Source of the DNA: Pelecanus crispus
Lineage: Eukaryota; Chordata; Aves; Pelecaniformes; Pelecanidae
Direction: 5' to 3'
Length of the DNA stretch: 64,000 bases
Assembly: GCF_030463565.1 (NCBI RefSeq)
Contig: NC_134659.1
Coordinates: forward strand, 8,006,511 to 8,070,510
Shown here: positions 4,132-54,954 of the stretch, in pieces
Position numbering within the stretch: the stretch's first letter is position 1
How the letters are laid out: every line of letters starts with the position of its first letter
Translations under genes and position numbers: made by a program
The notes under the pieces: generated by a model
The model's input: the letters and a program-made list of their open reading frames with translations, nothing else
Database searches by the model: none
What the model was told of the DNA's origin: nothing

Positions 4132-4723
4132 AGACTTGTGTACATTCAGGTTCCTCAGGTGGTCTCGAACCTGATCTTCCCTTACAGTGGGAGGGGCTTT
4201 ACCCCCCTGGTCCCCATTTTGCGGTCCATTGACTCGGGAGAGGCGAGGAGAGAGGTTGCCGGTGAAGACTGAGGCAAAGAAGTTGTTGAGTACCTCAGCC
4301 TTCTCCTCGTCTGTTCATACTAGGTCGCCATTCTTGTTCAGCGGGGGGGTACGCTTTCTTTAACCTTCCTTTTCTGGTTGACATACCTGTAGAAGCCCTT
4401 CTTGTTATTCTTTGCATCTCTTGCCAAATTCAGCTCCAGCTGCACCTTGGCCTTCCTGACACCCTCTCTACACAACCGGGCAGCGTCCCTGTACTCTTCC
4501 CAGGACACCTGTCCCTGCTTCCACTGCCTGTGCAGCTCCCTCTTGCTCTTTAGTTTGACCAGCAGGTCTCGACTCAGCCATGCTGGTCTCTTCCCTTCCT
4601 TGCCTGGTTTCTTACACCTGGGGACTGAGAGCTCTTGCGGTCTATGGAAGGTGTCCTTAAAGATCTGCCAGCTCTGTTCCGTTCCCCTGTCCCTGAGGAC
4701 CGTCTCCCAGGGGGTCCTTCTGA

Positions 4724-17096: not shown

Positions 17097-17123
17097 TTCA
17101 GTGCTGACTTCTAACTCTGAACC
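16966..17123 (-). CDS. DRAM2: DRAM2 first coding exon (start codon 17096-17094)
   Basis: A 27-nt stretch of 5' UTR precedes the ATG; the acceptor (minus CTCACAG) ends at 17,124. The exon encodes residues 1-43 plus two bases of codon 44 and holds the first transmembrane helix. The donor is CAG then GTCAGT, just below 16,966. Confidence 0.92.
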
Positions 17124-18019
17124 CTGTGAGGAATCAAATACAAAGGTTTACTAAGATTTCTCAAAGGTTTTGCTTTTCTTGAGGCAAGCTGCTTCAAGTA
17201 CAGCGATTCGATATTGCTCTCAGTCCTGTCCTGCAAACCCAAAGTGAACATTTGACTTCACGGCAAAGAAGCGATCATATATAAGCAGAAATAACTTCTG
17301 GAAATGTTAATTCTGAAATTCTTAGAAGATCATGAGAAAAACAGCCAGTAGTGTCACTTTACTACATGTCTTGACATTTGTTGCTGCCAGAATAAGGTCA
17401 AATGGGTCACTGTGAATAACTGATTCTATTTTCTTCTCACCCTTGTGTCATAACACCATGTTAGAATTAGTGAGGCTGACAGAGAACGTGTCCCAGTAGT
17501 GACAGTTTAAGTGATAGTGGCTGTTGTGGAGCCTCTAACTTCCATTAACAATCCACTGGGCAGACATGGGAGAAAATGACCTAAAATTACTTTAATATCC
17601 GCACTCATTTACTACCTGTCATGCTGCGTGACCCAACATCCGTTACAAGCATCACTTAAATGAGCTCACAGACGTCCATGAGCAAGAGCTGAGCGCTACC
17701 AACCACAACCTTCAAACTCCAGGGCTATTTTTTCCTGGTGGCAGTGTAGCAGCTGCCATGTTTTTAGAGGTGGGAGGAAACAGTCCATTCACAGTGGAGT
17801 GAAATGGCTAACTCTGTAACTCATGCTATCCAGTTCCATAAGTCCCAGCCTGACAGCAAATTGGTGCCTCTACCTCCAGCTCTCCAAGAGCAATAACGTG
17901 CAGCTGTGTCACGCTGGTGAGCTCACGCAGAAGGAACTGTGACTCCTCTCGACTCTTGCTGCTAGAGGGAAGTAATTTTCTATCGGCTTCAAATACAAAG
18001 TTAAGCAGAGCTGATTTCA

Positions 18020-23480: not shown

Positions 23481-23600
23481 CTCAGCCGCTCCCGCGCCGT
23501 CCCCGCGGCGGCCTCGCGCCGCCCCGCCCCGCTCCGCCCGGCCCCGCCCCGCCCCGCCTCGCCCCGCCTCTCTCCGCCCCGCCCCGCCCCCAGCGCGCGC
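23481..23600 (-). other. DRAM2: Probable DRAM2 non-coding first exon
   Basis: On the minus strand, GCTGAG is followed by GTAACC at 23,480-23,475, a reasonable splice donor at the left edge of the GC-box array. An exon ending at 23,481 would join to the 5' UTR acceptor at 17,123. The transcription start is not determinable from sequence. Confidence 0.4.
23518..23592. promoter_or_regulatory. Array of GC boxes (Sp1/KLF-type sites)
   Basis: About ten CCGCCCC or CCCGCCC units are packed into 75 bases between the two gene starts. An ETS-like TTTCCGG lies just downstream, near 23,621. Such arrays are typical of TATA-less housekeeping promoters that fire in both directions. Binding is inferred. Confidence 0.7.
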
Positions 23601-23639
23601 CTCTGCCACCGCCCATCTCCTTTCCGGCCGTCGCAAAAG

Positions 23640-23710
23640 CGGCGTAAAAGCGTCGCCCGGTGCGGGGAGGTTGAGGTGAATGCTGGGTTCTCCTCGGTGG
23701 CGGGTGGGAG
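23640..23710 (+). other. CEPT1: Probable CEPT1 non-coding first exon
   Basis: Just right of the GC boxes, GGGAG is followed by GTGAGG at 23,711, a good donor; an alternative GTGAAT lies near 23,675. Either would splice to the acceptor at 25,418. The start of the exon is a guess. Confidence 0.45.
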
Positions 23711-25418
23711 GTGAGGGGACGGGGTCCGCCCTCCCGGTTCTGTGCGCTCCCCCGCCGGCTGGGGCGGGGTCCCGGGGGGAGAGGGGCGCCGTGTGGGTGA
23801 GGGGGAGGCCCTTGAGGTCGGGCCTGGGCCTGTGCTGCGGGCTGGGCCGGGGGCTGGGGTACCCCCGCCCGGCCTGGGTGCGGGTGGGTCCTGGCCGCCC
23901 AGGGAGCTGCCTCCGGCGGGCTGGGGGCGAGGCGGTCGGTTGGGCCGAGAGGTGTCCTTGTCCTCCCTCCCCTCCCCTGGGTGTTTGCCGGCAAGCAGCC
24001 AGGCCCGGGTGAGAGTCCCGCGGAAGCCGGGCGGTGTGGGGCTGTTTGCTTTGGAGGGCGAGGCGGTCTTTGGTTGTTTTCTCTCCTGGGGGGGGGGGAG
24101 CCCTTCAGGAAGAGAGGAAAAGCATATAGTTTTCTCATTGGAGCTAATTTTCCTGGTCAACCAGGAGAACACCCACAGGGACTTCCTAGGTGACTGAGTC
24201 TGATTTCCTGGCAAACGGGTGCAAGTCTGCCTGCTCCCAAACTTATGAAGTTCCTGCATAACCCAGGCCCTGTTTGCTTGCTTTCTCCTCTCCTTGGACT
24301 GGCAGGGCTTTCTGAGGCTGGCTTTTCACTGTTGGAAATTGCCTTAATTAAGCTGTGGTGAGTGGTAATGAGAGCACTTGTTCTTATGCCGGTATCGACC
24401 TTTGACTTACATTGCCTATTTTCCCTATGTGGTACGTGCGTTGCTGATGGCTTTAGAGGTAGCTGTCGTCTTCCCCTCTCTAGCTTCATTCTGCTAGGCT
24501 TTGCAACTAGTTTGTTTGTTTGTTTTTTTTTCTTTTTCCGCTTGGCTTTTGTAGATAAATAGCAAACTTTTCTTTTTAGTCTGCTTTCTCTACTGCTTTC
24601 CCTCTAGTTCACAGGGAGAGTTACACGTTTCTAGTCACCTGCCTTCAAGGGAGATGGAACATTGCGAGGGTCCTTGTTTGCACTGGAAATGCTGTTCCTG
24701 ACCCTGTGTTTTCTTTTCACAGCTGCCTCATGCTGGTGTCTGTAGGCTGTCTTTGGCCAGCTAAGGCTCCTTAGCTCCTGCATGTTTCTTGCATATTTTA
24801 AAAATTGAATAGACAATGAGCTTTCACCTGAGCTGGGTTAAATTTGGAGAAGAAAAAAGCTACAGCAAAACTGAAATAAGGAACAGGGATGTGAAAAAAA
24901 TGCTTATAACTGCCTTTAGGTGATTGTTCAGCTTCACTAAAGAGACAAAGCTTCTTCAAACCAGTTAAACTAAACGCACTACAAATACAGAGAAATCTTT
25001 AGCGCTATCAATTGATAAGCGAAAGTGGTGGATGTCCGTTATGTACAGCTAGCTCTCCTATAAGAGGGATGCGAGGGGACTGACTGTGCCTTAGTCTGTA
25101 ACATAAGTCTGTGGTGTAAGTTTCTACTGCTGATGAAAATTAGGCCGGTGGCTGCAGGATATTTGCTTCACTAACAGCGAGGAAAGTAAGCAAGTGCAAG
25201 TTACTGTTTTATAACTGCACTGAGAACGTTTGTTTCCTGTCTTACCCTCAGCAATTCTCCAAACATCTTTCTTTTCTAAGGGAGAACTTTTATAAAATCT
25301 TCTTGGCTTGCTAATGGCAAATGAAATGTTCCTTAGAGCAGCGCCTAGAAACTTTTGATATGTTAAAATCCCATTTGTGCTCTTCACCTTCAGTATATCT
25401 CAACCCTTTATGTTGCAG
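23711..25418 (+). other. CEPT1: CEPT1 intron 1
   Basis: The first 400 bases belong to the CpG island and are G-rich on the transcribed-sense strand. The rest is ordinary A/T-rich intron with no recognised element. Confidence 0.55.
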
Positions 25419-25820
25419 GATCTTATGATTCTCCGTAACAGCTGCTACCTGCCAAATAAAAATTCTGAGGCTGCCCAATCCATGAGTGGGCATCGAAACA
25501 TAAAGAGGCGATGTGGGGAGTCGCACCTGGAATCCCCCGCGGGCTGCGGTCATGGTCCCGCTGCTGGATGCGTGTTAAGCAAACTAGTTCAGTTGCCTAC
25601 ACCTCCCTTGTCAAAGCACCAGCTGAAGCGGTTAGAAGAACACAAATATCAGAGCGCTGGACGATCCCTGCTTGAACCCCTAATGCAAGGTTACTGGGAA
25701 TGGTTAGTTGGAAGAGTTCCAGCCTGGATTGCCCCGAATCTGATCACCATCATTGGACTGTTAATAAATATATTTACAACTCTGCTATTAGTATATTACT
25801 GCCCAACAGCTACAGAACAG
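25419..25820 (+). CDS. CEPT1: CEPT1 exon 2 (5' UTR plus residues 1-113)
   Basis: The acceptor is TTTATGTTGCAG and the donor is GTAAGT. The start at 25,482 matches the human N-terminus M-S-G-H-R. An in-frame upstream ATG at 25,425 would add 19 residues (M-I-L-R-N-S-C...), and no stop lies between. Both ATGs have weak contexts (C or T at -3). The exon encodes a cytosolic N-terminus, the L-P-T-P-P-L-S and L-L-E-P-L-M-Q segments, and the first membrane helix near residues 82-108. Confidence 0.93.
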
Positions 25821-28800: not shown

Positions 28801-31800
28801 TAGTCTTTGGTCTAGCAGGATTTGGTATTGTTTGTATTTCCGTAGAAATAAGTCGCTATACAGGATGTGAATATTAAGGGTTATTAACGTAGATTGGGCA
28901 ATGCTGCTGTTGCCTGGTAGGAGAAAAAACAATTGGTGGTGGAGGTGCTGTACTGCAGAGCACCGAAGCTTTACAGAGCTCAGAAAATGTAACAGCTAAA
29001 CTTGAACTCTGAAAGTTTGAGCCCTTTGCCATAGTTCTCAAATGCCACTGCAGCCTGGTAATACGCTGTACTTGGCAGCGTTTTAGTACGTGACACCTCC
29101 TGAGGTCTTGTGAAGATGAGCTCAGTGTTTGTGACGCAGTTGCACATTTTGGGGGCTAAGAAAGCTTTCCAGCTTATAAATCACTCTATCAACTTACGCA
29201 TACCCCTACACGAAAGAGAAGCAAGACGAGAGCTTAATTGTGCACCGCTTTGCAGATGTAGTACTATAATTTTTTTCAGATGTACAATGCAGCTTGCTGC
29301 TTTAGAAAATGTGCTATGCCTATTAATCTAAGCTAGTAGCTCTTGTCACTGTTTTATTTACATTTCACATGTCATAAACCCCTCTGCCTGTCCCTGCAAG
29401 GACCAGCTACTGAAAAGTCCATGATGTGATGATGCAAATGAAAAACTACTGTATGAGAGTGTAAGATAGTTCAACTTCAGGCTTTTTTTTTTTTAAGGCT
29501 TAAAAAAATCTTTTACTCTCATTGACTTTCTTAGGCACCTCCCTGGGCGTACATTGCTTGTGCATGTGGCCTTTTCATCTACCAGTCTCTGGATGCTATA
29601 GATGGAAAACAAGCAAGAAGGACAAATAGCAGTACTCCATTAGGAGAACTTTTTGATCATGGCTGTGATTCACTTTCCACAGGTATTGTCATTTTTAATT
29701 GAAGTATGAGAATTAAATGACACTATTTCAGGGATCAAATCTGGAATACAGAAAAATGCTTCTTTACTGAAGAAGAGGACAACTGATATTGCTGAATGTA
29801 TAGCTTTTCAGTCAACCGTCTTTCCATAGACAGTACTCTTGATCAGCTGAATGTCTTCTCTTGTATGACACTGAAAAAATTAAGCATGTGACTAATTCAG
29901 TCTGAGCCAGCAGTCTTATGTGTATGCTTTATCAGAGTCTTGGTTCTAAAAAAAATTCTGTGAGAAGTTGTCAAAATGCTCTTCTATATTATTTTAGATC
30001 GAATCTATATAGAGCGATTGCAAGACAGGTATGAAGCCTAAACAATGGGACGGTAGAAGTCTGAGTTTAAGATTAGAATCAGCAAGATCAGTTCCTTTCT
30101 AGGTAGGTAGAGTTCATTGAGCCAGCCTGAAGTTTAACCCCATTGCAAAAGAATGATTAGATACTTTTCGTTACTTAAATTTTAAAGCTCTTACGCTTTT
30201 ACATTTTTATGAATGCTTTATCAAAGTCGTGTATTTAAAGGGGGGAGGGGAGGCATGAATCTTGAATGACAGACCTTGGGTTTTTTATAATGGCATAATA
30301 AAAATTCAGAAAAGGGGGGAAAATATGTCCAGCAAATCTTGGATACAGGAGAAAACCCCCAAACTCTGGCCACAGACTGCAATTGCATAAATCGCTCAAG
30401 CCCCTTGATGTATAATCCCATTAAGTTCAATAAAAATGTAGGAAACTAAGAAACCCTCAATACTGAGGACTTCTGATAACTGATAGGAATTTAAATACAC
30501 ATTTTACAGTCTGTACTTTTTTAAAATGGAAGTGTTTAATCTCTTATGTCTGTGAAATAAAACGCATCAGGATACCTTCACACTGTCTCTCCTTCTCTGG
30601 GTCCTTTTGTTAGATTTGTTTCTGGTAAGGATCTTTGCACACATACACACTTTATCTTTTTACTATGTGACTGATTTTCTTCTGCAGTCTTTGTGGTTTT
30701 GGGAACTTGTATTGCTGTGCAGCTGGGAACGAACCCTGACTGGATGTTCTTTTGTTGTTTTGCTGGAACATTCATGTTTTACTGCGCGCATTGGCAGACG
30801 TACGTCTCTGGAACGTTGCGCTTTGGCATGTAAGTACCTTGGCTGAAAATAAAAGTGAAAGTTAGGCTGCTTTCCTGTCTAGTTGCACTTTATGTGATTG
30901 TAGTTCAGGTATTTAGGGCAGTAGTAAATTGTTTGTATTCACATATACACGCTTAGAGCTTGTGGCAGCTATTAGCTGTTGGATCCGCAATTAATACCGA
31001 ATGTTAGTTGGCTTGTTTTAGGAGTGGTAAAATATCCTTTTGTCATATTAGTTAATTAAGAGCTTCTGAAGTCATTTAAACCTGAATAAATAGGGAAAGT
31101 ACCTGGGGTGTTTCATCCCCAAGAGTGGAGTGCTTTTGTCTGATGGTGGCACTCTGGCTTTAGTGTTCAGTTAACTACCCGTCTCTTGATCTTGCTTGAC
31201 TTGTGGTGATGGTATAGTTAACCTTTACTATTAAGCATAACTCTTAAAATACAGTGTATTCATTGACATTGTGCCTACAATTTAAAGTTCTGAATCCCTC
31301 TTAGTTAGCGTAGACTGTGGTTCTGTCAATAATGGGACCAAAATTGCAATGCCAAGAAAGTCAGGAGCTAAAGTCCTGTTTGCTGGTGGGTGAGGGTAGG
31401 TGGGGAAACGGAACACAAGCACTCGGTGAGCTGTGGGATTCACTAGCCTTAGTGTGGAAATGTATGTTTATTCTGTGTTTGCATTCATAGATCTAACAAA
31501 TATATTTCAAGTAAATATGCTGCAGAATGATTTTGCACCTGGAAACCTCTGAAACTTGTCCTTAGTTTGTATGGGACTTTGAGATAATGCTACAACATGC
31601 GCTGTTTATCTGCATTCTGTTGTTGCTGATCTATGGATACCCAGATACTGCTAAACCAGTACAATTATGGACCTCTTGTCTGTAACAGCTCTTATTGGCA
31701 GAATACTAATGCAGATTCTCTTGAGAAACTTCTGTGTTTCTGCTGGAAAAATGTAAGATGTTGGAGCAGTTTTCAGTGTCTACTGGAGAAATCAAAAAAG

Positions 31801-37800: not shown

Positions 37801-40800
37801 TTCCTCACGCACACGCTGATGATTGTGTTTGCCCATGTGTTGGAGTGGTACTGTAAATTGTAGAAGCTCTGAATGGAGTTTTGAATGTGTAAAATACTAT
37901 GTGGGTTACAATATTTTTGTTAATTCACTAATACTCTCATTTTTTGTGGTCATTAATTCCCTTCCTCTGACCTACCCTTTAAATTATCTCAATGCTGTAC
38001 AGTAGTTGTCTGGATTCTGTTCTTTATACCGTGACTGAAGATCCGTTCTAATGGTTCCACTTAACTGAAGTGCTCAGGAAAATGTTTTGAAATGTTTCTT
38101 TCCCTCACACGTAGATTTGATGTTACGGAGTCTATGCTCTGTACAATAACAATCCAGCTTCTCACAGGAACTCTGGGGCCCTGGTTCTGGAATTACACGG
38201 TAAAGTGAACGTTAATGCTACCTGGCGAGCAATGGCATGGACTAAGCAGAGACAGCACCTTTGTCATGCACATAGTAACTGGTATATGAAAAACAACATC
38301 TAAGGGTATTTCACAAGTGCTTTAATACAGGGGGAAAAAATGTTTGCAAAATATGAATGAGCAGGAAAAATCCGATCTAATGGAAATAAATTTTTTTGAA
38401 AGCGTCATGTTTTATTTGAAAACAAAGCGAAAACCTGCCCATTAAACAGAAAAGTTTGCTTTAAGCATTGCTTTTTACTTTGTCACAGTTCTGGCTTCAC
38501 CTAAAAGATAACCAGGGTTGTGGAAGCAGCAGGGTATAGATTAATTTTGTTGGAACTGCTTTTTAAAGTTGTAGAATTTTTTTTGTTGTTGTTGCTGTTT
38601 AAATACCTTTCCACCAAAAAAAAAAAAAAAGGATTTCTTGCCTAGTTCAGGGAACTGTATGCTGTGCAATAGCTTAAAAAGTCACCGGTTACTGGTTAAA
38701 AAATGCCTGTTTTGAACTGTGCTGCTTCATCCGTGTAGTCTGGTCACTTAACTGTGCTTGTAGCTTCATCGCTAAGTAACTTCATTTCCTGGTTGTCTTT
38801 ATTTTCAAAATGATTCTCCTTATGTCTGCTAAATATATCCTTCTCCACTCTGGTTTACTGTTCCTTTTGGAAAGGACTTTCTCTTCCTTATTTTGGCTCT
38901 TTTAATACAGTGTATATAGGTGGGGTTCCCCCCCCTCCCCCCAATAAAATGGTATCATTAAACGTAAGTTGGGTTCCTTGAAATTTCTCATAGTTGCTGG
39001 ATTATTAGCCAGGAGTTTCCCTTGAAATATTTGGGATATAAGAACAGCTTTTTGGTATTTTTGATAGCCTTCTTAGAACTGCATCAGATTTTAAATAAAA
39101 CTTTTTTAAATAAATTTTTTTTGGTGGCTTGTTTAGATACCCTTTGTTAAACTTGCATTGATGCAAATTACGCTGTTCTTTTGGCTTGTTCTTTTTCCTG
39201 TAATGGTTCAGCACAATCTCTGTTTTCATGAGGCTATTAGAAAGAGTCCTTAATTACCAGCTCTACTTGAGATCCAACAATATCAGCAATCTGGTAAATC
39301 ATGGTGTCTGCCGTATCTGCGGGCTGCATCTGACAGTTTCAGCCCAGTGACAATCAGGCGTGCTCTGAAGCGAGTCAGATGACATAATTTTTAAATACTT
39401 TTGTTGACAGTCTATGAAAGGCTGGAAATACTTACTGTCAGGAAATGGTAATGTGGGAAGAAATAATTCGAAGGAAGGAAGAGCTTAATCAAGATTTGAG
39501 CCCGTTGTGATAATGGCGTTATGACTCTTCCTGAGAAGTCACTTGGGCGGGGGGGGGGAAGAAATCCCTTAGTACCAAAACGCTCCGAGACTTCTGAAGT
39601 CCCCCATTGGCATGATAGTTAGGTGAGAGGAAGCAGCTCCAAATTCTGTAATGAAAGCGAGTTGTTTAAAATGGATGAGGGCAAAATGCCACCTGAGGGA
39701 GGAGTTCTGATCCTCTGCACAGGTGACCTGGAGCTGAAGGAGAAGTCAGTCTGTAGACCCTGCTGTGGTCTCCACCCTTGGAAAGGATGCCTTTGCTGTT
39801 CAAGACGACATTTGTTTTCCAAATAAATGCAGTGGTTGGTAGGGTTGGTGTGTGTAGCAGATGAGCCAGGCAGAGCGTTTTGTCACTTTTACTCCAGTAA
39901 CAGAATGCTGAGTGTTTGCTTCTGACAAGTCCCCTCATGCATGCTAATTTTAGCCAGTTTTTAGCATACTGAATTACGGAATAGACTTAATTATCTTCTT
40001 AAATTCTTGCATGTGTAGTTTCAGATGTCTTCTAGCATCTGTATTTTTAGTCTTAACTAATTAAAGATGCTGCTGCTTCTCAGTCACTCAGAACACGCAA
40101 AGCATCGCAGTTATTTTACACAGTTTGAGGTCAGGTGGTATAGATTTTTATTCCAGTATTGCACCATCTCTGAGATGGTTAAGCTACAGGAAATACGTAC
40201 TCATGCTATTCTCTTTCATCTGATAGCTGTTTCATGTAACTAACACTTGTAGTGAGAAAGCATAACCATATAGCCCTGTCTTGAAAGTACTACGTGATCT
40301 GGCAAAATATGAAGTGAACAGATTGCAATTCTTGCAACACAGATAAACCTTGTACTTAACGTGTGCTGGGTTGTAAGGGGGTTTTATTCATCAACGATGG
40401 AGAAAACTTTTTAAATTGTTAATGAATTTTGCTTATGCCTTTAGCCTCCAGAGAGGTTATTTAAAAGAACATGAAGGCTTTAAAGAATTGGGGTGGTGGG
40501 GGGAGATTTTGGGAATCAAGTTAAAAAGTGTAAATGTGCAGAATTCTAAAGAGCTTCAGCCCTGCATCCCTCTTCCTGCAGCTCTGCAATGTTGCCCATC
40601 AGTACTTGTAGTGGTGGAATGTGACTTTTGCTTGTAAACACCTCGCATTTTGGTGTTTTCCATAGATCAGAAGTGGGCAGTTTTAATACAGTTTAGCACA
40701 ATGTGTATTACATATAGAGGAATTGCAGATGAAGGTGTTTAAGATGAATGAATCTGGAAAATTCTTAGACTTTTATAGGAAATAAAATGTTAAAACACTG

Positions 40801-43800
40801 TTCCTGATAATCTTCCATTATGTCAGAAAACATAAGTTTGAAAACTAGCAAGTAATCTGTATCCAGGTTTGGCACGATGAGGAGGGGTGGATTAATAAAC
40901 GAGTTGCAGTGTGCAGAGCAGATCCGCTGCAGGAACGGAGAACGCCTTTGGCAGCTCTGTAGGCATTGTGCTGGCTTGTGAATTTACGCAGGTGGGGAGA
41001 GAGGGATGAAATGTGCCTTTAAAACCTCACAACTTTTATGCTTCCCTAACTTTATCTGAATTAAAACACTTAGATATTCGTGTTTACAATCTTCAGTTCA
41101 CAAAGGTAGCTGGTGCAGTGTTGACACTTTGACCTAGCCCCTACTTGCTGTCTTCAGTTCTGCAGAGCTGCTCTTTGTTATTCTTTCCTAACATCAGTTT
41201 GCTGCAGAATCAGTATTTTTCAGGGCCATTTTCAATGTTTTTCCCAGCCTTGCAATTAGATGTTCTGTCTAGGCATTTTTAGTTTAACAAACTAAGTCTA
41301 GGTTCTTTGTCGCTTTGTCTTCAGCGCCTGATCTTTGTTCCTTGGTTCTTTGCCTGGATGTTCCTGGTGATCTTAAAAACTCGCTTTTGGGGTCTTCTGT
41401 TTATTTGCTAGAAGATGAAAAAGTCCCTGGTTTATTTGAAGAAGTGATCTTTGGAACTAGGCTGCTTTGAGTCTGAGGAGCTGTTACAATCACTTCACAT
41501 CCATCTATTGTAGCATGAGCATGTCTTGGGGGAAACAGTTTGTTTCCTTTGCTCCATTTCATACGTATTAGGGATCCGCCACATACTGTGCACTATGTCT
41601 CTGCATCGTCCTAGCAACATAAACTGTTTGGGCAATGCTGACATCGTTGTCTGAAAAGCGGATTCACTGCCCAGTGTGCCATAAGCTGATTTCTACGCGC
41701 ACAGGTGAGATATTGCTTTATTTCATTTCTGCGCAGAGATAGGTGCTAGGTGGTAATTCCACCAAGCTAGCACACAGACGCCTCCTCTTGATCATATTTA
41801 TACAGCAGATTCCGCATGCCCTTCTTATGCATATATGCATTTTAATTTGCATACATTATGTAATGACACAGTTACAGAACACTTAGTCTAACCCCGCGTG
41901 CTCCATTGGGGTCTCTGGTCTTCGGTGGTCGCTCCAGCTTGTATCCCCCTTAGGCGTGTTGCCAAAGTTCACGTTGTGGTCATCCAAACCTTTTCTATTG
42001 TCCTTCTTCATTCATCTGTCATTTGCTCAAGTTCCCCCAGTGTTCCATTACACTACACTGAGTTCCTTTGATTATTACATCTACAGTAAATCTTCTGCCA
42101 TGTTCTGGCGTGGTCGGGACTACACAGGGGCCAAAAGCAGCTTAATGTTTTACTGATACCAGCATGACTCAATTCGGTAGGAAACATCAGGCAAAAAAAC
42201 TGTCAGGTTAGGGGAAGTGTGGCTCGAGTGATTGCTGAAAATATCCCAGTTAAGAGGCTTTAAGAAACCCCCTTACTTGAGCTGCAGAATTACATGCTGC
42301 TAACTCTTTCCGTTTGTTTTTTCTTAGGCTGTCCACTGTAGTGTTTAAATGAGTAAGTAAATACAAACACAAGGAGAAAACAGAATCTGATTTTGAACTG
42401 GCCAATATCTGTATTTGCTTTGAAATGTTCTTGCTTTCTGCAGGTCTGCTTATGGTACCAGGCTGCTGGTTGTGTTCTGTAATTAAGTGGAGGGGGTTGC
42501 AGCACCAAAGGCCTTTCCCCACTTTTGACTTCCCAATGCTGTGGGTTTTATTTTTTCCTCGTGGTACCTATCTTTTTTGCATTGAAGCTAAAAATACTTT
42601 CCTGCTATTAGTCGATAAATGATCCACTACTCTAGTTTGCATTTCCTTACCATAGGAAGAGGTACTCCAGTGTGCAACGGAAGTGTGTGTGGAAAAAAAA
42701 TATAGTGCTATTTATGTAATATTTAAGCAGGAACGTTATCGCCCTACTTTGCAAATAATTTCTGTAGCCACTAAAGCAAGCTATATATATTTTTCCGCAA
42801 AAGGCCAGCGTGGGTAGTACAGAAAGGCTTTAGTCAGTCTGCAGCCAAACTGAGCAAGCAGCTTTCCATGCAGCCCTGTTTTTCTCTTGTCTTTTTATTA
42901 GGTACCTTCCCAGTTCTACCAGAGTTTGAAACCGATATGGTGACTGAGGCAATTTATGGATCTTTTTATTACTAGCACATTTTTATCTTGAAGGAATTCA
43001 TATACACAAGTTAATCATTAAAGTGTAGGAAACGAATGTCCTCTAGGTGCCTGACGTGTTAACGTTTTCCAGGTGGTGCCGTGCATTACCTCTGCTCAGC
43101 ATCTTTCTTGACAAAACCACTGTTGCTTTGTTTTCTAAGTGCATTCTTTTGCTTTTTTTACTGTGTTACATTTTAAGGGCTGTTTAGGACTTTATGAATG
43201 CTGGTAGCGGTCCACTTGTGTCTCATTCGGAAGCCTTAACTCGTTCCCGTTTATTCCTCCTTATGCTGCCTTGTCATCCAAGCCTGTGGCTGCAGTCACT
43301 CAGCGCTCTCGTTCAGCTGCCGAAAGCAGCAGTGCAGACCTTCCACCGACCTCTCCTTTGTGCTTGCATCGTTCATGAGGCCACGCAAAATGGATAACGA
43401 ACGCTTATATGATAGGAACTGGGACAGGAACCTTTCTTTTCTTCCCCTTTTTTGTTTGGCTCACTTTAGCTAAGCTAATATCCCCAGTGCAGCTGATGGC
43501 ATGAGACCGCAGAGCTGGCACAAGGGAGAAAGTGGGACTGAGCCCTTGGGTTTTGGGGGTGGAAGTGGTTGGTCTTTAGAGAAGCCGGGATGACTGCTCC
43601 TTTTAGCAGCAGCATGAATGTAGTTGAGTTTAATGCTGTAGTTGCACAGTCATTTTAAATTCAAGATAAATGAATAGAGGAACAGTGTGCCTCTTTTCCC
43701 TTTCACCCAGCTTCCGTTTCCAAATGTTCCCTTTTGTGGTCTAGCTTTGAGGAGCTGCCTGTCCGGATTCCTGTATTCTTAGATTTCTAAGTAGTGGCCA

Positions 43801-46800
43801 TTTAACATTCTGCAAAAAAAAAAAAAAAAAAAAAATTCACTGGATAATTCCAGCATCAGGCATGTACTCTACAGTTATGGAGCATGTCTTTTTGAAAGTA
43901 ATCCAACAGTGATTTTAATGAGTGTAGGTGACGAGGATCCCCTATAGGTAAGGTGTTCCCAGTCCATTTTCATCCTTGGTATTAAGAACTTATGCTTTAC
44001 TTTAGGTGATAGTTTAGGTGTTTAGTTTCTCCTCAGTTGGTCTTACGTCTTTGCCTGCTCCTTAAGGAGCCCTTTAGTGCTAAAAATCTTCTCTTTATAT
44101 AGAATTGAAGTTAAGGCTAATATTTGTTCTGCAATATGAGATTCTTATTAAAAGTCAGGGAGGAGTTTTTAACCAAATATACTTGCAGTTCATTGCTGAA
44201 CCCTTCCCAGCTGCCTGATGCCATTTGTATTTGAGTTGCGGAGGGCAGAACTACGGGCAATGGAGCAAAGGTTGTACCATGGCTGTGTAAAGAAGATAAT
44301 GCTGTCTCCCTAACCTGAATCCAGGCACTGCTTCCATGGATTTAGCTGGGCTCCCAGTTTTGTGCAAGAGTTTGTTGTTCAGAATACCTTGTATTTTGTG
44401 ATCTGAAATTTTTTTAAAGTATATGCCCTTAATTTTATTTTGCATTAAGATTACTGCTGCCAAAAGAAACTTGTTTTACTGTCCAAGGAAAGCTACAAGC
44501 TTGTTACCTACAGCAGTTACTAGTCACTGTTCCTGTGAGCTTTCTCAATTGCTTTATATTCTTTTAGGTCGCTGACAGGAGTAGTGAAATAGGCTAAATA
44601 AAATGCATTCCTGCTTAACCTGTGCAGGTTCACAGAGCTGCTTCAGCCCTTCCTCAGCTGGACACACTGAAAACATGTTTCCATGCTGACTCCAAAAGCT
44701 AGGAGGGAGCAATTTGCATTTAATCAGATGTTTTGTGTATCACTCTTCTTGCATGGCTGAGCGTTTTTACTTTTTCTTGCAAGGTAGCTCCATTTGCATG
44801 AGGACTGAAAATAAGGATTCTTTTTAAGAACATTCTTTCCTCTTTGTGGAAATCAATTTTTCCCCAAGCTAGTTCTGATTGACTTACAGGATTGTTACTG
44901 AACAAATCAGAATATAGGAGGCCCCCTGAGGTTATTTCCTGTGCGTCTTGTATCTCCATGCTTGGCGTAGTGAAAAGAAAACTTACAAAGCAAAGACATC
45001 AAAAAGAAATAGTCTCTTATTGGAATCTTTAGCTTTTCTCCGGCAGCGTTGGCTGAGCGTTGCCATGACGTGCTGAGAGCCTGGCGAGTTCACGGGTGTT
45101 GCTGCTGTGCCGTCTCCATCCTGCATGCTCCCCTCGGCTGCTTCGCTGCAGGGAGGGAGCGGTGGGCGATCGCAGCCGCGATAGGCGGGTTGGGTGCCGC
45201 ATCCTGTTTGCCTGCTGGCGCTGCCGCGTGCCGATTCTGTGCTTGTTTCATAGGTGCGTGCCCTGCTCTTGGAGTTGTTCAGAAAGTCTCTTGGCTGACG
45301 GAAAGGTGAAGTTGTGCAGTGGGAGATGGATGCAGTGTTTTTACAGCCCACTGAAAGCAGCAGCCAGCATTTAGAGAATCCGTAGTAAGATAAGAAATTG
45401 CCTTGAATACTACGTACTGTTGCCCTTCTGCTTCCTTATGCTCTGGGGAATGTTCTACATGGAAGTTAGATGCAGCCTCGTAATTATCCCTTGTGCTTAT
45501 TTATCTGCTGCTGAAACAAAATTATATTTTGGCCAGACTGGAGATGCTCAAATGAGAGGATCCACTCCAAAGCTGGAACAAAGGCTGTAGAGAAAACTTG
45601 GTGGCACGCTGATCTGATATTAAACTTAATTACATGGTCTTGTAGTTCATTTAAGACAGGCAAAAAAACCTCCTGAACCATTATTTCCTGATGCCTATGC
45701 AGTTGATAATATCAACTGTATGTATGTAGCAGCGAGGCATGTATTCTCAAGAAGCGATTTTGAGTATTTCAGATAGAATTGCATTATTAGAGATAAAGAA
45801 TATGCCATAAATATTTCAGACTGTCTTGAAGGATTTTTTTTTACGGTACTCCAGTATGAGATAGTATTATACTGCTTCACGTTATACACCAGCAAGTCAG
45901 CCTCTTCATATTTCACTTGTATTTTTCCTTTACACCAGCAAGTCAGCCTCCTTATATTTCACTTGTATTTTTTTCTTTACTCTTGTTTCTGGAATTGGTT
46001 TGTATGGCCTTGTTTTTCCCTCTTGCTAGCTCCAAGGCTTTCGCACACTCTTTAAAACAAAGTCTTAAACTCAATCTTTTCTATAAGCCTTTCCTTCTTG
46101 CCCTTCTACAAAACCTACCAGCTGTGCTAGAGCCAGAAGTGGTTCCTCTTCTTGCTGCGTGCTGGAGACTGAAGCGTGGAATCTTCAGCAGTGCGGCTGA
46201 CTGTACCGTTCACGCTTGCATAAACTCCTCAGGGAGTTCTGTTTCTTTTTAAAAGTTTGATGCTCTTCAGAGTGAATATTGATATTAAAAAAGTAAGGTA
46301 GGGAATATAATAGGGATTAAAAATATCTTTCCCGAATTTTATAATCTGAAATAAATTCTTTTTTTTTTTGGTGGGCAAGGTTAAAACTGAATATTTATTT
46401 CTGCAACCAGCAGTGGTCAGTTAAGAGTTCCAACTGTTCCTTTTGACAAAATGGATTTTTATGGCACTGTGAAATAAAAAGTATAGTACAGCATGGCTCT
46501 TAATTTTAACAATAAAACTAAAATATTTGCTTTCTAAATTATTTATAAATTTTGCCTCTTTTCCTCAGTATTTTGGAGTTTTATACTGTGCATGATAGAG
46601 GAGAGCTGCTGAGCTTGCAAATAACTGACTCGAAATTGCTTTGAATAATTTTGCTTTTTTTGGCTTTTTGTACTTAATCAGAATTGATGTGACTGAAGTG
46701 CAAATCTTCATAATAATCATGCATTTACTGGCAGTGATTGGAGGACCACCTTTTTGGCAATCTCTGGTAATTTTGTTCATGTTCTTATTTTAAGCTTTGT

Positions 46801-49800: not shown

Positions 49801-52800
49801 AGATTTCTGAGTACAACTCCCTCTCTCCCTTTACTCAGATATTTTTTTTTTCTTTTTTCTCTGTGCTGTTTGCTTGCCTTCGCTGCTTCCAACTTTTGGC
49901 CTTGCTGCTTACATTTTGTATGCAAAGCAATTTAGCAGGCGCTGCCTTTGACTTCCCTCTGCCAAACTTCTGTATGTAGCTTTGTTTCCCCTTAGTTATT
50001 TCTGCCAGATAAGTGCAGTCTAATACCTACCACTGATGCAGCTATCAGTGGAAGCAAAAAGGAGAGTGTTAATAAAGCATGACTAGCCAACCTGGATGTT
50101 ACAACAACGTGGTCTCATCCTTCTGCTTTTCCTGAGCATCATTCTCAGATGTGTTGGTAATAGTTTGGAGTTCATGGGGTGTTTTTTCCCAGCAAACTCC
50201 CCTTGTTTTTGGGAAGCGTCAAGCTTAATGTCTTGACTCCTGCGTGAAGCTTGCCATTGTTTTCCTCTTCCTGTAGAAGAGCAAATTCACCCCATTCCTT
50301 AAATACCAAACTACGGTTACTGATGCGGAGGGCAGCACAGGTACCTTCTTCTATAAGATTGAGTGGAGACCTTGCGAAGTTCTGTGCCTCGTAGCGTTAC
50401 TGAATGATTGCAGTTAGCATTCCAGTCTGTGGCAACGTATGCCTTTTGTTTACTTGTCATTATTCTTTCTATGCTATCTTTCAGAAAATGTTTTTTGACT
50501 TAACAGTGCAGCCTGAGCAAGGGAGAAATACGCTTGAGTGTCATGAACTGTGCCAGTCAGCCAGCAGCCTGCAGGGCAGTGATTTGGAGAGGTGGTCTGC
50601 GTGCTCTTCTGTAGGCTGCCTAAAGGCAAGGCATGAAGAGTTAAAGCTGGCTCTGCCTCCCATTTGTGCCCTGACAAGATCGAGATATTAAGTTATTGAA
50701 CTCGGTAGAAAACTAATGATCTTTACCTGCTGAAAGCTACGCTGAGAGTATAATTGAAGAAAAACAGAAACAACTTGACCTTATTTGGGCTTCTGTATGT
50801 AGTTGGGCTCCTTGCTGTTGGGGAGCCAAGGGTGTTTATGTGGTTGAGTGCTATGACAGCAGTTCCTGAATTAAGAGCCTGTGAAGATTTTTTTGTAGTA
50901 GTTGTATAGATAAAGTTGGGAAGCTTTGGGTAGTTCTCTCTAAACCCTTGCTTCCATAACACATTTGCTGTGGCTTATTTTGAATGCTTTCTTCACTTCC
51001 AGTTTCTCCTGTTCTGCTTGAAACACTCCTATTAAAACATGAAGACGACGACTGCCTTTCTTTCAAAGCTGCCTGTACTCATTTTTCACGACTTTAGTAA
51101 ACTCATCGCTTGCTCTCCTAGGCTCACTGACTCCGAGATGATTTCTCTGATCTCTGTTTGCTTCCCTTGTCTTGTCCATAAGGTAGTATCCAGTTTCTTA
51201 AAGGGCTTTGTTTAATCATCTCCCGTGGCTCTTGCTTTGCCCAGTTTGATCTTGGGTTGCAGCTGTGAGTTTTCGAACCAGCTTCAGAAAAGATGCCCGA
51301 TGCATTTTTCTTCTGTGTGATAGCTGGGTGATTTAGCTAGCAAGTTCTTGGTTTGGGTCCACTTATCTGCTTTTGGTGGCTCTTTTTAGGTAACTGAAGA
51401 TACGTCTGGCTTTATGGGGAGCTTGATGGGAGGATTATTGGAAGAACACATGTTTCTCTGTGCCTTGTAGAAATTTAAATCTCTGCATAGCAGAGAAAGA
51501 AAAGCAAATGTGGTATTGGAAAGTGGAGTGTTTGAGTGCACCAGAAGTATTAAGCCCAATTTTGGTTTGCTTGTGCATATTTTAACTTCTTGTCTCTCTT
51601 CCATTAAGATTCCAATACTGAATATTCAGGTGAAAATATTCCCAGCTCTCTGTACTGTCGCAGGAACCGTATTCTCCTGTACAAACTACTTTGGTGTAAT
51701 CTTCACAGGTGGAGTTGGCAAAAATGGATCCACTATAGCAGTAAGTACTTTGTTCTGCTAGTTACTCTTCAGCACTCTGTGGCTTTTGAGCCATGCCTTT
51801 TAGTTTTTATTTAAGATAATGCCTTCTACATGTGAAATACTTTCAGTTCCTTGCTGGCGTGGGAAAAACAAGTGAATATTGTCTGCGTAAGAATAGTAGC
51901 TTTAGGAGTCAAGAGTTTTAAAATTGGAGTGATTAAAAGTGCTTATTGTACTTTGATATTTGCTTTTGAATTAATCCTATAAAACAGGTTATACAAATGC
52001 GCACGCCCCCAAAGAGTTCATAGAAAAGTCCAATGCAAAAATCCATTCAGAAGAAAGTTCGTCAAGAAGATTGGTTATGGCTTTGATCCTTCTAGAAGAT
52101 CTGTATTATTCATATTACTAGTGAAGAACTACAGGTGGAGGTATCTGCACAAGTACCTTCTGTTTCAGTGAAGATGATGATTGATTCTGGAGCCCCGGGA
52201 GTTTTCCAAAAAGCAATCCTATAGTGGCCTAATAATTAGTTGCTACCTAGAAGACTGTTTGAGTTGCTTTCTAGCTGAGAAAGCGATAGAAGTATTGTCT
52301 CCTGTCACTTGCTAAAAGTGTCAGCCACTGCCTGTGTGACACGTGTCACAGCTGTGCGCTTCTTGCTGCCAAAAACCTTATTTCCTCTCCCAGCACATGA
52401 AAGGTTCAACCATGTTCTCAGCTGATGCTCGCTCAAGTTTCACCATGCTTTGTTCCTGTTAGTACCGGTGTTCAGAAAGACATGTTTTTAATCTTACTTT
52501 AGTTAGAAACCACCAGTTGCATACCACGTGAGCGTCTGGCTTACTGAGGTTTCTTTGCAATGTGCATGTTTTGTTAACCTAACGCTTTAACTTTAATCCC
52601 ACTGTAGGGAACGAGCGTCCTTTCACCTTTTCTTCATATTGGGTCAGTGATTGCATTAGCTGCAATGATCTACAAGAAATCTGCTGTGCAGCTCTTTGAA
52701 AGGCATCCCTGCTTATATATACTTACTTTTGGTTTTGTATCTGCTAAGATAACAAATAAACTAGTGGTAAGTGTGCCAGAACCTTCCAGTTTCTTGTTAT

Positions 52801-54954
52801 TGCAGTAAAACTTTTTGTAGATTATTTAAAGTTCTCTAGTTATTCCACTGACTAACTTGCATCTGTTTGTGTACTGAAGCGATACTCGTGCTTTACTTAT
52901 TTTGAGTAGCTTGGAGGTGCAGCAGAGCCTTCCTTCTGTTCGAAAGGGGAGCGGTAAACCTCAAGTTAGTGCCATGGTTACACAGTCAGTGCCAGTACAG
53001 CTTAGAGTTGCCAAAGTTCTGTTTCTCCCACTTTCCCAGCTGTTCATTCACATTTTTGCAGTGTATTTGGGCATGTGGGCAATGAGCTGGGCAGGCACGG
53101 AGGTGGCTGAAACCCCCCTCAGATGCAGGTGCAGAGGGGGGAGGGAAGTTTGGGAGAAGGAGCGAAGGTGACAGAGGTGCTGAGGTTTGGAACAGTTGCT
53201 CAGGGTTTAACTTAAACAATTGGAGAGAAATAGTGGTTAAAATTAACAGGTTTGTACCCGGGAGCAGACGGCAGCGCTATTGGGAGCGGAGCCCGTTGCA
53301 CAGAGGGTGAATGAGGGATGAAACAACGGACATAACTCGGAATGGAAGAAAAGTTTCTTTCTTACCAAGGCTGGTTAACTACACAGTCACATCAACAGTT
53401 GTGCTGGTAAAAGTGAGGATGTGGTGTAGGACAGCCTCTGTGCCTGTGGGGGAGGGAGGGAATGTCACAATTTGGCATGAAAAGATGTGATCATCAAATG
53501 GTAACCAGAGAGAGGTGGTGATCCTTATGGGATGGGAACAAATAGGTGAAGTGAGAGGAACAGTAAGTGTCTCTGATTTTTGAAGGTCTAGCAGCTGTGA
53601 GTTTTGGTTTCCAGGCTCAACTAAACCTTAAAATTTACCAGTCTACTTCTATTTTACTGTTTTGTTTCTGGCCAGAGGAAAGATTTGTGGGCTGGAAAAT
53701 GTGTTAGGATTTTTTCCCTGTAGCTACGTTCTTTGTGCTAATAAAAGATACTTCTCTGCAAACCTTGCATCTCATAGCTGTAGACTTTTGTGGTTCAAAC
53801 AGTATTGCTGCTGCTACTTAAGTACCTGATACATCTTACGGTAATGCGGCTTGAACTATAACTTCTGTGGCTTTGTGTATTCTGAAATCACTCTGCGTTG
53901 GCTGGCATATGTTTATTTCTTAAACTTCCTTCTTTTGTTGTAGGTTGCACACATGACCAAAAGTGAAATGCACCTGCACGACACAGCATTCATAGGCCCA
54001 GCACTGTTGTTTCTGGACCAGTATTTTAACAGCTTTATTGATGAGTATATTGTACTCTGGATTGCCCTGGTAAGTATGGGCTCGCTTTGCTTGTCGGTAA
54101 TCATTGTGAGCGTTTGCGTGCTCTCTCACAAATATGGTTTGCGTTGGTTGAGCCTAGCTGACTCACCTAGAGGGTGATGGGACTGGGAACTTACTTTACT
54201 GAGTTGATTTTAAATAGAGCTCATGCAAACGGAGGTAAACATGGTTTGCTTGGTGCATAGTTTAAACAGTTTTAAAGCAACGTAGCAAATACTCAAAGCT
54301 TAGAATAGACTGTTTTGAAGATTTGTGTTGATGCCTTGTTAGCGAGGGAGTATATTATGTGCGGTGCAACTGTAGTACGGCTGTACCTTAAGCTCTTGAA
54401 AGCATGTACGTCTGTCACTACTAGCAGCATCCATTAGGAAAAGATACCTGAAGTTACTCATACGTGCTTATCAAGCACTCAAGTGTTATCTACCAAAATG
54501 CAGTGTTAACCTTTTAATGAAATCGGTATTTTGTGTATGGTTATCACAATTCAGAGTTAATGGGGCATTTCACAGTATCTGTATAGGTACTATAACTGTT
54601 TTCCCCTCTCTGACTACAGAATTAAGAGTCTGTATTCTTACAAAGCTGGAAGAAAGCGCAGCATACCTAGAAACTCTTTCTTCACTGAGTGATTATTCCT
54701 ACAGAGTTGGAGATTTAGTTTGTGAAAAGAAGACCCGAGTGCTTTTATTCTGAAGTGTGCAGGTGGTGTTACAATCTTGTGTTATACTCTATGCAAATAT
54801 AGATCTAAATGTGTGTAATTTTTTCCATTGGCAGATCTTTTCTCTCTTTGATTTGCTTCGATACTGTGTCAGTGTGTGCAATCAAATTGCTGCCCATCTG
54901 CACATCCATGTATTCCGAATCAAGTCGTCCTCCACGCATTCTAATCACCATTAG
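25482..54954 (+). CDS. CEPT1: CEPT1, choline/ethanolamine phosphotransferase 1 (eight coding exons, one with an alternative copy)
   Basis: Exons 25482-25820, 29535-29682, 30688-30829, 46682-46766 (or 38115-38199), 51609-51740, 52608-52766, 53944-54069 and 54835-54954 join to 1,251 nt: 416 codons plus a stop, with all phases consistent. The enzyme transfers phosphocholine or phosphoethanolamine from the CDP form to diacylglycerol, the last step of the Kennedy pathway, in ER and nuclear envelope. The CDP-alcohol phosphotransferase signature D-G-x2-A-R-x8-G-x3-D-x3-D is complete at residues 136-158 (D136, G137, A140, R141, G150, D154, D158; also D133). The protein is multi-pass (about ten helices in the family). 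The N-terminal M-S-G-H-R and C-terminal S-N-H-H match human CEPT1 rather than CHPT1. Introns are GT-AG. Transcription likely starts in the CpG island at 23.6 kb. Confidence 0.96.
25821..29534 (+). other. CEPT1: CEPT1 intron 2
   Basis: This intron is about 3.7 kb. T-rich runs occur near 27,782-27,805 and 28,064-28,078. No mobile element or alternative exon is recognised. Confidence 0.7.
29535..29682 (+). CDS. CEPT1: CEPT1 exon 3, catalytic signature
   Basis: This 148-nt exon encodes residues 114-162 and contains the whole CDP-alcohol phosphotransferase motif (D133, D136, G137, A140, R141, G150, D154, D158). These aspartates bind two metal ions in the family. The acceptor is TTTCTTAG and the donor is GTATTG. 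It ends in phase 1. Confidence 0.95.
29683..30687 (+). other. CEPT1: CEPT1 intron 3
   Basis: This intron is about 1.0 kb. Nothing is recognised in it. Confidence 0.75.
30688..30829 (+). CDS. CEPT1: CEPT1 exon 4
   Basis: This 142-nt exon encodes V163 to the split codon 210, including P-D-W-M-F-F and the conserved [17 protein letters not shown] block. The acceptor is TTCTTCTGCAG and the donor is GTAAGT. It ends in phase 2 (AT of codon 210), so it can join either exon 5a or 5b. Confidence 0.95.
30830..38114 (+). other. CEPT1: CEPT1 intron between exon 4 and alternative exon 5a
   Basis: This intron is about 7.3 kb. It contains a TG/TA-rich palindromic stretch at 34,571-34,607 and a C run near 36,390. 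No mobile element is clearly recognised. Confidence 0.65.
38115..38199 (+). CDS. CEPT1: CEPT1 alternative exon 5a (homologue of exon 5b)
   Basis: This is an 85-nt open exon with a strong acceptor (TTTCTTTCCCTCACACGTAG) and a plausible donor (ACG then GTAAAG). Joined to exon 4 it reads [12 protein letters not shown] and ends G-P-W-F-W-N-Y-T, then continues in frame into exon 6 (I-P-I-L-N-I). It has the same length and phases as exon 5b; 12 of 29 residues are identical, including D-V-T-E, L-L, G-P and F-W. The W-N-Y-T/I-P-I-L junction resembles CHPT1 (W-D-Y-T/I-P-I-L, from memory). It has no stop in the coding frame. I infer a second, mutually exclusive version of a transmembrane segment. Its use is not proven by sequence, but a decayed copy would not be expected to keep frame, length and splice sites. 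Confidence 0.82.
41690..42180 (-). mobile_element. Probable solo LTR of an endogenous retrovirus
   Basis: Read on the minus strand, the segment has a TATA-like TGTATAAATA near 41,803-41,812. About 100 bases further on, after a GGCGTCTGTGTGC block, comes GAAATGAAATAAAGCAATAT with an AATAAA hexamer (about 41,717-41,722), then a GT-rich stretch. This spacing of promoter, R and polyadenylation signal is typical of avian LTRs. No gag, pol or env remains nearby. Ends are approximate because no target-site duplication was identified. Confidence 0.55.
43815..43836 (+). repeat. Poly-A run
   Basis: About 22 consecutive A bases lie within the CEPT1 intron. The flanks are not recognised as a retrotransposon. 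Confidence 0.9.
45885..45976 (+). repeat. Two-copy tandem duplication, 46-bp unit
   Basis: Units 45,885-45,930 and 45,931-45,976 both begin TACACCAGCAAGTCAGCCTC and differ at only a few positions. The duplication looks recent. It lies about 700 bases upstream of CEPT1 exon 5b and contains pyrimidine-rich sequence. Confidence 0.92.
46682..46766 (+). CDS. CEPT1: CEPT1 exon 5b (canonical exon 5)
   Basis: This 85-nt exon encodes I210-L238: [10 protein letters not shown], a hydrophobic helix, then G-G-P-P-F-W-Q-S-L. This is the version that matches human CEPT1 as remembered. The acceptor is TTTGTACTTAATCAG, with a weaker pyrimidine tract than exon 5a, and the donor is GTAATT. It is the homologue of exon 5a, 8.5 kb upstream. 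Confidence 0.94.
46767..51608 (+). other. CEPT1: CEPT1 intron 5
   Basis: This intron is about 4.8 kb. It contains a two-copy tandem duplication (47,840-47,952) and C-, T- and A-homopolymer runs near 48,070-48,110. No other element is recognised. Confidence 0.7.
47840..47952 (+). repeat. Two-copy tandem duplication, about 57-bp unit
   Basis: Units 47,840-47,895 and 47,896-47,952 both start TACCAT and share GAATGAGTGT, ACTAATTCTAAAAAA and GGCTACAA, with scattered differences and small indels. Confidence 0.9.
51609..51740 (+). CDS. CEPT1: CEPT1 exon 6
   Basis: This 132-nt, 44-codon exon encodes residues 239-282: [14 protein letters not shown], a membrane helix with F-S-C-T-N-Y-F, and the conserved [11 protein letters not shown]. 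The acceptor is CTTCCATTAAG and the donor is GTAAGT. It begins in phase 0 and so accepts either exon 5a or 5b. Confidence 0.95.
51741..52607 (+). other. CEPT1: CEPT1 intron 6
   Basis: This intron is about 0.87 kb. Nothing is recognised in it. Confidence 0.75.
52608..52766 (+). CDS. CEPT1: CEPT1 exon 7
   Basis: This 159-nt exon encodes residues 283-335: [12 protein letters not shown], a helix, [19 protein letters not shown] and A-K-I-T-N-K-L-V. The acceptor is ATCCCACTGTAG and the donor is GTAAGT. Confidence 0.95.
52767..53943 (+). other. CEPT1: CEPT1 intron 7
   Basis: This intron is about 1.2 kb. Nothing is recognised in it. Confidence 0.75.
53944..54069 (+). CDS. CEPT1: CEPT1 exon 8
   Basis: This 126-nt exon encodes residues 336-377: [13 protein letters not shown], a conserved loop, then the helix with [15 protein letters not shown]. 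The acceptor is CTTTTGTTGTAG and the donor is GTAAGT. Confidence 0.95.
54070..54834 (+). other. CEPT1: CEPT1 intron 8
   Basis: This intron is about 0.77 kb. Nothing is recognised in it. Confidence 0.75.
54835..54954 (+). CDS. CEPT1: CEPT1 exon 9 (last coding exon, stop 54952-54954)
   Basis: This exon encodes residues 378-416: the last helix, then [14 protein letters not shown] and the terminal H-S-N-H-H. The acceptor is TTTTCCATTGGCAG. The C-terminus is CEPT1-type; CHPT1 has a longer, different tail. Confidence 0.95.

Follow-up and report, generated by a model that had tools for sequence, protein, structure and literature searches.

The CEPT1 gene of Pelecanus crispus carries two homologous versions of exon 5, here called 5a and 5b, and their status as an exon pair is well supported. 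Both lie in the window (the whole stretch of 64,000 nt that was analyzed). The explanation we consider probable is that they form an old, mutually exclusive pair, and that choosing 5a swaps the transmembrane helix TM5 to give a working enzyme with a changed diacylglycerol preference or a changed rate of diacylglycerol entry or release.

Judging from sequence comparison, the gene is CEPT1 and not CHPT1, and a separate CHPT1-like gene is present on contig C1. When a human CEPT1 sequence was used in tblastn searches, seven of the eight canonical exons aligned at 81%–96% identity, and exon 8 fell within a mixed alignment. The coding exons are as follows:

25482-25820, forward strand: exon 2, the first coding exon, containing the start codon; 81% identical to human CEPT1 by tblastn, donor site
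29535-29682, forward strand: exon 3, carrying the CDP-alcohol phosphotransferase motif DxxDGxxAR...GxxxDxxxD; tblastn, splice sites
30688-30829, forward strand: exon 4, the common upstream exon, ending with two codon bases; tblastn, splice sites
38115-38199, forward strand: exon 5a, alternative TM5; 85 nt, 28-residue peptide, with a counterpart in 22 proteins from other vertebrates
46682-46766, forward strand: exon 5b, canonical TM5; 85 nt, 28-residue peptide
51609-51740, forward strand: exon 6, the common downstream exon; tblastn, splice sites
52608-52766, forward strand: exon 7; tblastn, splice sites
53944-54069, forward strand: exon 8; tblastn, splice sites
54835-54954, forward strand: exon 9, the last coding exon, with the stop codon; tblastn, splice sites

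The second half of the exon 3 motif reads GELFDHGCD, and Pfam PF01066 was found in all three of the 5a proteins scanned (P0003, P0011, and P0019).

Exon 5b is the canonical version, as 27 of its 28 residues are identical to those of the CEPT1 structure 8gyw. A preliminary description had reported two homologous 85-nt exons that enter in phase 2, leave in phase 0, and have intact splice sites, and we confirmed this in the sequence: each is preceded by AG and followed by GT. At 30829, exon 4 breaks off two bases into a codon, which either exon completes to Ile, and exon 6 (from 51609) is reached in frame from both. The encoded peptides share 11 of 28 residues, or 12 of 29 if the Ile of the split codon, common to both, is counted, which reproduces the identity given in that description. 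None of 200,000 shuffled versions of the 5b peptide had 11 or more identities. The interval from exon 4 to exon 6 holds 25 stop-free stretches of 85 nt flanked by AG and GT, counting 5a and 5b, and the summed BLOSUM62 score against 5b is 44 for 5a and −2 for the best of the other 23. A DNA search of the genome with 285 bases around 5a returned only the match to itself. Given these scores and the single DNA match, an origin of 5a by chance or from a repeat was rejected. No Rfam family matched within the window.

The reading frame offers a simple basis for exclusive use. If both exons are spliced in, a stop falls at the second codon of 5b, and if neither is, a stop falls at the fourth codon past the split codon; either message would be frameshifted and presumably degraded. 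The earlier proposal that the two are mutually exclusive agrees with this logic and with most gene models (see below). Steric exclusion is unlikely, because the intron between 5a and 5b is 8,482 nt long with GT-AG sites. A tblastn search with human CEPT1 found no further coding exon between them.

The preliminary description had suggested looking for 5a in other vertebrates, and protein searches place it far beyond birds. Of 23 proteins returned, 22 have the 5a form (P0021 has 5b), and they come from seven birds, two squamates, seven mammals or mammal-like sources, one salamander, the coelacanth, and two entries each of sturgeon and paddlefish; P0011, counted once, is the representative of a cluster with 215 members. 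Stops or broken splice sites in related birds had been named as grounds for doubt, and the exon is open in the proteins of seven other birds (one a partial model). Queries with the sturgeon, coelacanth, and salamander 5a peptides yielded six proteins from 17 candidates at E-values up to 10, all from sturgeon, paddlefish, coelacanth, or salamander. Protein searches requiring shared five-residue words returned no teleost, shark, lamprey, or invertebrate 5a, a result that does not imply true absence.

Exons 4, 5a, and 6 are joined without extra sequence in 14 of the 22 models, and in none is 5a joined directly to 5b. Three (P0002, P0004, and P0016) include both exons, each with extra in-frame sequence between them; P0005 and P0008 have inserts adjoining 5a, and the camel model P0017 continues past 5a and terminates early. 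Errors in the models or genuine mixed transcripts may account for these cases. P0007, from a mammal-like source, lies on a 2,442-base contig in which the coding exons are already joined in the 5a form; apart from exon 5, two of its 352 resolved residues differ from human CEPT1. Thus, that source has a spliced 5a RNA or a DNA or RNA derived from one. In the coelacanth, both forms are present as predicted gene models (P0009, 5a; P0021, 5b) that match elsewhere, except that exon 7 is absent from P0021.

All 20 complete 5a peptides (that of the window and 19 of the 22) are 28 residues long, and D212, V213, E215, G228, G231, P232, W235, and N236 are invariant among them. In a tree built from only 28 columns and arbitrarily rooted, 5a forms one group (support 96/96) and 5b another (95/87). 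Between bird and mammal, 5a changes faster (21/28 residues identical) than 5b (27/28). From this distribution we conclude that 5a is an ancient exon; an old tandem duplication would have produced the two copies, each encoding a full version of TM5, and both would have been kept.

Exon 5 encodes TM5, which walls the acyl-chain chamber on one side and borders the slit proposed for diacylglycerol entry (PMC10156783, PMC10182977). The preliminary description was right that the segment includes a transmembrane helix. However, it placed the segment merely after the catalytic region, and the catalytic domain comprises TM1-6, so that TM5 is part of it and of the lipid chamber (PMC10156783). Within TM5, V213, V216, F219, and I220 contact the lipid tails, Q217 apparently bonds with the sn-1 carbonyl, and V216A reportedly changes how diacylglycerol is used (all as given in PMC10156783). 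Contact residues 216 and 219 differ between 5a and 5b in every sequence compared (V216 becomes Ser or Thr and F219 becomes Cys or Ile), and the far end of the segment changes from GGPPFWQS to LGPWFWNY. D212, V213, E215, G231, and W235 are common to both forms. The contacts are not preferentially changed, as no residue is shared between 5a and 5b at two of the five TM5 contacts versus nine of the 28 positions overall. On the reading we prefer, choosing 5a would swap tail-contacting residues and reshape the far end while leaving the conserved residues in place, and the enzyme should still work, with a preference for other diacylglycerol species or with another rate of entry or release.

An alternative, which we regard as unlikely, is that the 5a form is weak or inactive and that the switch lowers phosphatidylcholine (PC) and phosphatidylethanolamine (PE) synthesis without changing lipid species. 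In human CEPT1, activity falls by 40% with V216L and by 60% with Q217L, each as a single change (PMC10156783). Bird 5a has S216 and M217 (Q217 is kept in mammalian 5a and lost in bird, squamate, and salamander 5a), and its mean helix hydrophobicity is 1.41 versus 2.53 for 5b, so that a poorer membrane fit or low activity is possible. Against this, all 20 peptides keep the 28-residue length with no indel, and D212, E215, G231, and W235 never vary; a change of D212 lowers activity (PMC10156783). Skipping alone would suffice as an off-switch. Poisoning of a partner subunit is also unlikely, because mutations in the dimer face left activity unchanged (PMC10156783).

It is likewise rather improbable that the swap acts through the far end of TM5 to alter the location or binding partners of CEPT1, with catalysis much alike. 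Residues 227-236 do hold five of the nine positions without a shared residue, but TM5 faces the chamber and the slit between TM5 and TM6 through which diacylglycerol entry is proposed, and dimerization occurs via TM7-10 (PMC10156783, PMC10182977). Very improbable, in our judgment, is that 5a serves mainly as a poison exon whose inclusion with 5b, or read-through, yields degraded RNA and so tunes CEPT1 level. The immediate stop when both are included and the camel model would fit; against this, 5a is a clean coding replacement in most models, and a poison exon needs no conservation at the protein level. That 5a is a decaying relic, or an open stretch that arose by chance and was annotated purely through homology, we discount almost entirely, despite its faster change, given its intact length and invariant residues across bony vertebrates, the spliced contig, and the other 23 open stretches, which are unlike 5b.

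CEPT1 makes bulk PC and PE. Differences in acyl pattern among tissues are usually ascribed to the supply of diacylglycerol and to subsequent remodelling. If a conserved exon switch exchanges the very helix holding the tails, splicing would have a direct, testable route to setting such a pattern, and it may decide which fats CEPT1 builds into membranes. Because the solved human chain is the 5b form, its structure and kinetics do not describe the 5a form.

The paralogue CHPT1 also encodes TM5 in an exon 5 at the same gene position. Unlike CEPT1, it has one copy in the Pelecanus genome, 5b-like with V216 and Q217, and the interval from its exon 4 to its exon 6 showed no second, 5a-like copy. Two distant loci (L024 and L025), highly diverged and little covered, gave only chance-level weak matches to any exon 5 type. 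We know of no duplicated-exon case in any Kennedy pathway enzyme. The exon 5 pair of SNAP25 swaps no membrane helix. In being a duplicated vertebrate exon whose copies are used in a mutually exclusive way (PMC2581893), it resembles that of CEPT1, although SNAP25 is a synaptic fusion protein rather than a lipid enzyme. The CEPT1 exons are probably tandem duplicated exons, like the 236 substitution events of this kind listed for 214 human genes in PMC9741552, which also involve adjacent homologous coding exons of old origin, one of which is chosen. A term search of the main texts of PMC9741552, PMC5740500, and PMC4465641 did not find CEPT1 named. The preliminary description knew of no account of the pair, and the literature searched yielded no publication on it, although predicted "isoform X" entries exist: database isoforms of Calonectris (X4), Latimeria (1b X2), and Acipenser (X2) have the 5a form. 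These are computer predictions, with names silent on a homologous alternative TM5.

The choice between 5a and 5b may be under tissue control, perhaps by RBFOX. Both donors lack the +5 G that is present in five of the six other donors, and they score 5.4 (5a) and 6.6 (5b) on a rough scale built from base frequencies. Other donors score between 4.5 (exon 3) and 12.6, with exon 6 at 6.1, so those of 5a and 5b are not uniquely weak. Two motifs offer weak leads:

38235-38239, forward strand: GCATG, possible RBFOX site, 36 nt downstream of 5a
46589-46594, forward strand: TGCATG, possible RBFOX site, 93 nt upstream of 5b

Another GCATG occurs at −191 of 5b. As a rule, UGCAUG lies downstream of exons that RBFOX enhances and upstream of those it represses. 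GCATG and TGCATG are held by 10.9% and 3.9% of 100-nt stretches, and RBFOX was one of seven motif classes tried. It is doubtful, taken as a whole, that an RBFOX-type factor in brain or muscle moves splicing from 5b to 5a, that the swapped TM5 alters the diacylglycerols entering PC and PE, and that this has been kept since the bony-vertebrate ancestor; if true, a splicing programme would set membrane acyl composition. Other motif matches near 5a are PTB-type (−95 and −19) and CELF-type (−289), with others further downstream. In a sheep RNA-seq study, CEPT1 is one of 124 genes whose exon skipping differs stably between fat- and thin-tailed breeds; the text consulted does not name the exon.

The CEPT1 exon 5 pair is real and old, and its members are apparently mutually exclusive. 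The complete coding part of the gene lies on the forward strand within the window, which falls on contig C17 of the 1.31 Gb genome, and both versions of exon 5 sit between 30829 and 51609 (the first coding exon is counted as exon 2):

25482-25820, 29535-29682, 30688-30829, forward strand: CEPT1 exons upstream of the exon 5 pair
38115-38199, forward strand: exon 5a, the alternative form, 85 nt
46682-46766, forward strand: exon 5b, the canonical form, 85 nt
51609-51740, 52608-52766, 53944-54069, 54835-54954, forward strand: CEPT1 exons downstream of the pair

Exon 4 ends with two bases of a codon, which either 5a or 5b finishes as Ile, and each then encodes 28 residues, ending at a codon boundary. 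A message with 5a alone or 5b alone encodes 416 residues; inclusion of both, or of neither, shifts the frame and brings a stop after a few codons. Exon 5b is the known form (27/28 residues identical to the CEPT1 structure 8gyw), and 5a matches it at 11/28. Chance similarity is a poor explanation. The interval from exon 4 to exon 6 contains 25 stop-free AG-85 nt-GT stretches, counting 5a and 5b; against 5b, 5a has a BLOSUM62 sum of 44, and the top score among the other 23 is -2. None of 200,000 shuffles of 5b reached 11 identities. A DNA search with 285 bases around 5a gave no match besides itself.

Of the 23 proteins that three protein searches brought up (18 from the first), 22 carry a 5a-like exon, the exception (P0021) being the coelacanth 5b form. 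The holders are seven birds (Calonectris, Neopelma, Nyctibius, Pipra, Cuculus, Empidonax, Mesitornis), two squamates (Sceloporus, Heteronotia), mammals (cow, muntjac, camel, three bats, and entry P0007), the salamander Lissotriton, coelacanth, and two entries each from sturgeon and paddlefish. The contig of P0007 (2,442 bases) has its coding exons already joined and thus derives from RNA or a copy of RNA; because the protein differs from human CEPT1 at 2 of 352 resolved residues outside exon 5, we have taken it as mammalian. Given this spread, the pair most likely predates the split between ray-finned and lobe-finned fishes, about 430 million years ago.

Exons 4, 5a, and 6 are cleanly joined in 14 of the 22 proteins. 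Others have both exons with extra sequence in between (P0002, P0004, P0016), inserts adjoining 5a (P0005, P0008), a different start upstream of 5a (P0014), reading that continues past 5a to an early end (P0017), or a cut within 5a (P0018). A direct 5a-to-5b join occurs in none of the 22. The cow (P0002) and camel (P0017) entries continue after 5a with near-identical sequence (VTARI-MLS-EQWRELNKD...), which suggests either a second donor downstream or a common model artefact.

For comparison of 5a we used 20 complete peptides, one from the window and 19 from those 22 proteins; P0018 was left out as cut, and P0020 and P0023 as duplicating the 5a of P0019 and P0022. All are 28 residues long, with D212, V213, E215, G228, G231, P232, W235, and N236 invariant. 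Nine of 28 positions (211, 216, 219, 223, 227, 228, 230, 233, 236) share no residue with five 5b peptides. Exon 5a is the faster evolving, with bird-to-mammal identity of 21/28 versus 27/28 for 5b. In an arbitrarily rooted tree of 24 distinct peptides (28 columns), 5a forms a single group (17 rows, 96/96) and 5b a separate one (4 rows, 95/87), with three peptides of the paralogue CHPT1 on the 5b side. CHPT1 of the same genome has a single exon 5 that carries V216/Q217, as 5b does; the interval from exon 4 to exon 6 of that gene yielded no further copy.

The pair is located in a helix that handles fatty-acid tails; what makes it interesting is which enzyme is affected and where the swap falls. 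In human CEPT1 structures, according to the accessible text of PMC10156783, the exon 5 segment takes in TM5, within the catalytic domain (TM1-6); acyl tails of bound PC contact V213, V216, F219, and I220, and Q217 apparently bonds the sn-1 carbonyl. The same source gives activity losses of 40% for V216L and 60% for Q217L, reports older work in which V216A lowered activity and altered diacylglycerol use, and proposes diacylglycerol entry between TM5 and TM6, a route also proposed for Xenopus CHPT1 (PMC10182977, accessible text). In 5a, position 216 is Ser in 18/20 peptides and Thr in 2/20, 219 is Cys in 13/20 and Ile in 7/20, and 217 is Gln in 10/20, the rest having Val, Met, or Glu. Compared with 5b, the bird 5a helix is less hydrophobic. 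The evidence for a role of the swap in selectivity is suggestive rather than statistical, because TM5 contacts lack a shared residue no more often than chance (2/5 versus 9/28 positions overall).

Crowding cannot enforce the choice, as the intron separating 5a and 5b is 8,482 nt long. Both donors lack G at +5, as does only that of exon 3 among the six others. GCATG lies 36 nt downstream of 5a and TGCATG 93 nt upstream of 5b, RBFOX being one of seven motif classes tried near the exons; 10.9% and 3.9%, respectively, of 100-nt stretches of the window hold these motifs. Where RBFOX favours an exon, its motif is expected after that exon and before the other. The layout of these putative sites fits RBFOX favouring 5a, as a lead only. 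CEPT1 is among sheep genes with differential exon skipping, the exon being unnamed in the accessible text of PMC10825154.

Such systems are a known class, and the 5a form is already in databases as a prediction. We found the CEPT1 pair undescribed in the main text of searchable, mostly open-access papers, including the duplicated-exon surveys PMC9741552, PMC5740500, and PMC4465641, as covered by term search, and passages of PMC4600267, PMC3316567, and PMC7066660; it may be listed somewhere already.

Three other features of the window were observed:

3325-4314, reverse strand: reverse transcriptase fragment (PF00078, 106.5 bits), presumably from a CR1-type LINE
16872-17147, reverse strand: open frame with a weak Frag1/DRAM family match (25.7 bits, under the 30.3 cut-off)
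about 23140-24330, both strands: numerous long frames that overlap and have abundant Pro, Arg, and Gly; possibly a CpG island

We take the second to resemble the first coding exon of DRAM2, in which case DRAM2 and CEPT1 would be arranged head to head; the third is possibly a shared promoter. Elsewhere in the genome, two more CDP-alcohol phosphotransferase loci (L024 and L025, contigs C2 and C3; 45-49% to CEPT1) are perhaps of SELENOI type, and the genome may therefore hold two such genes.
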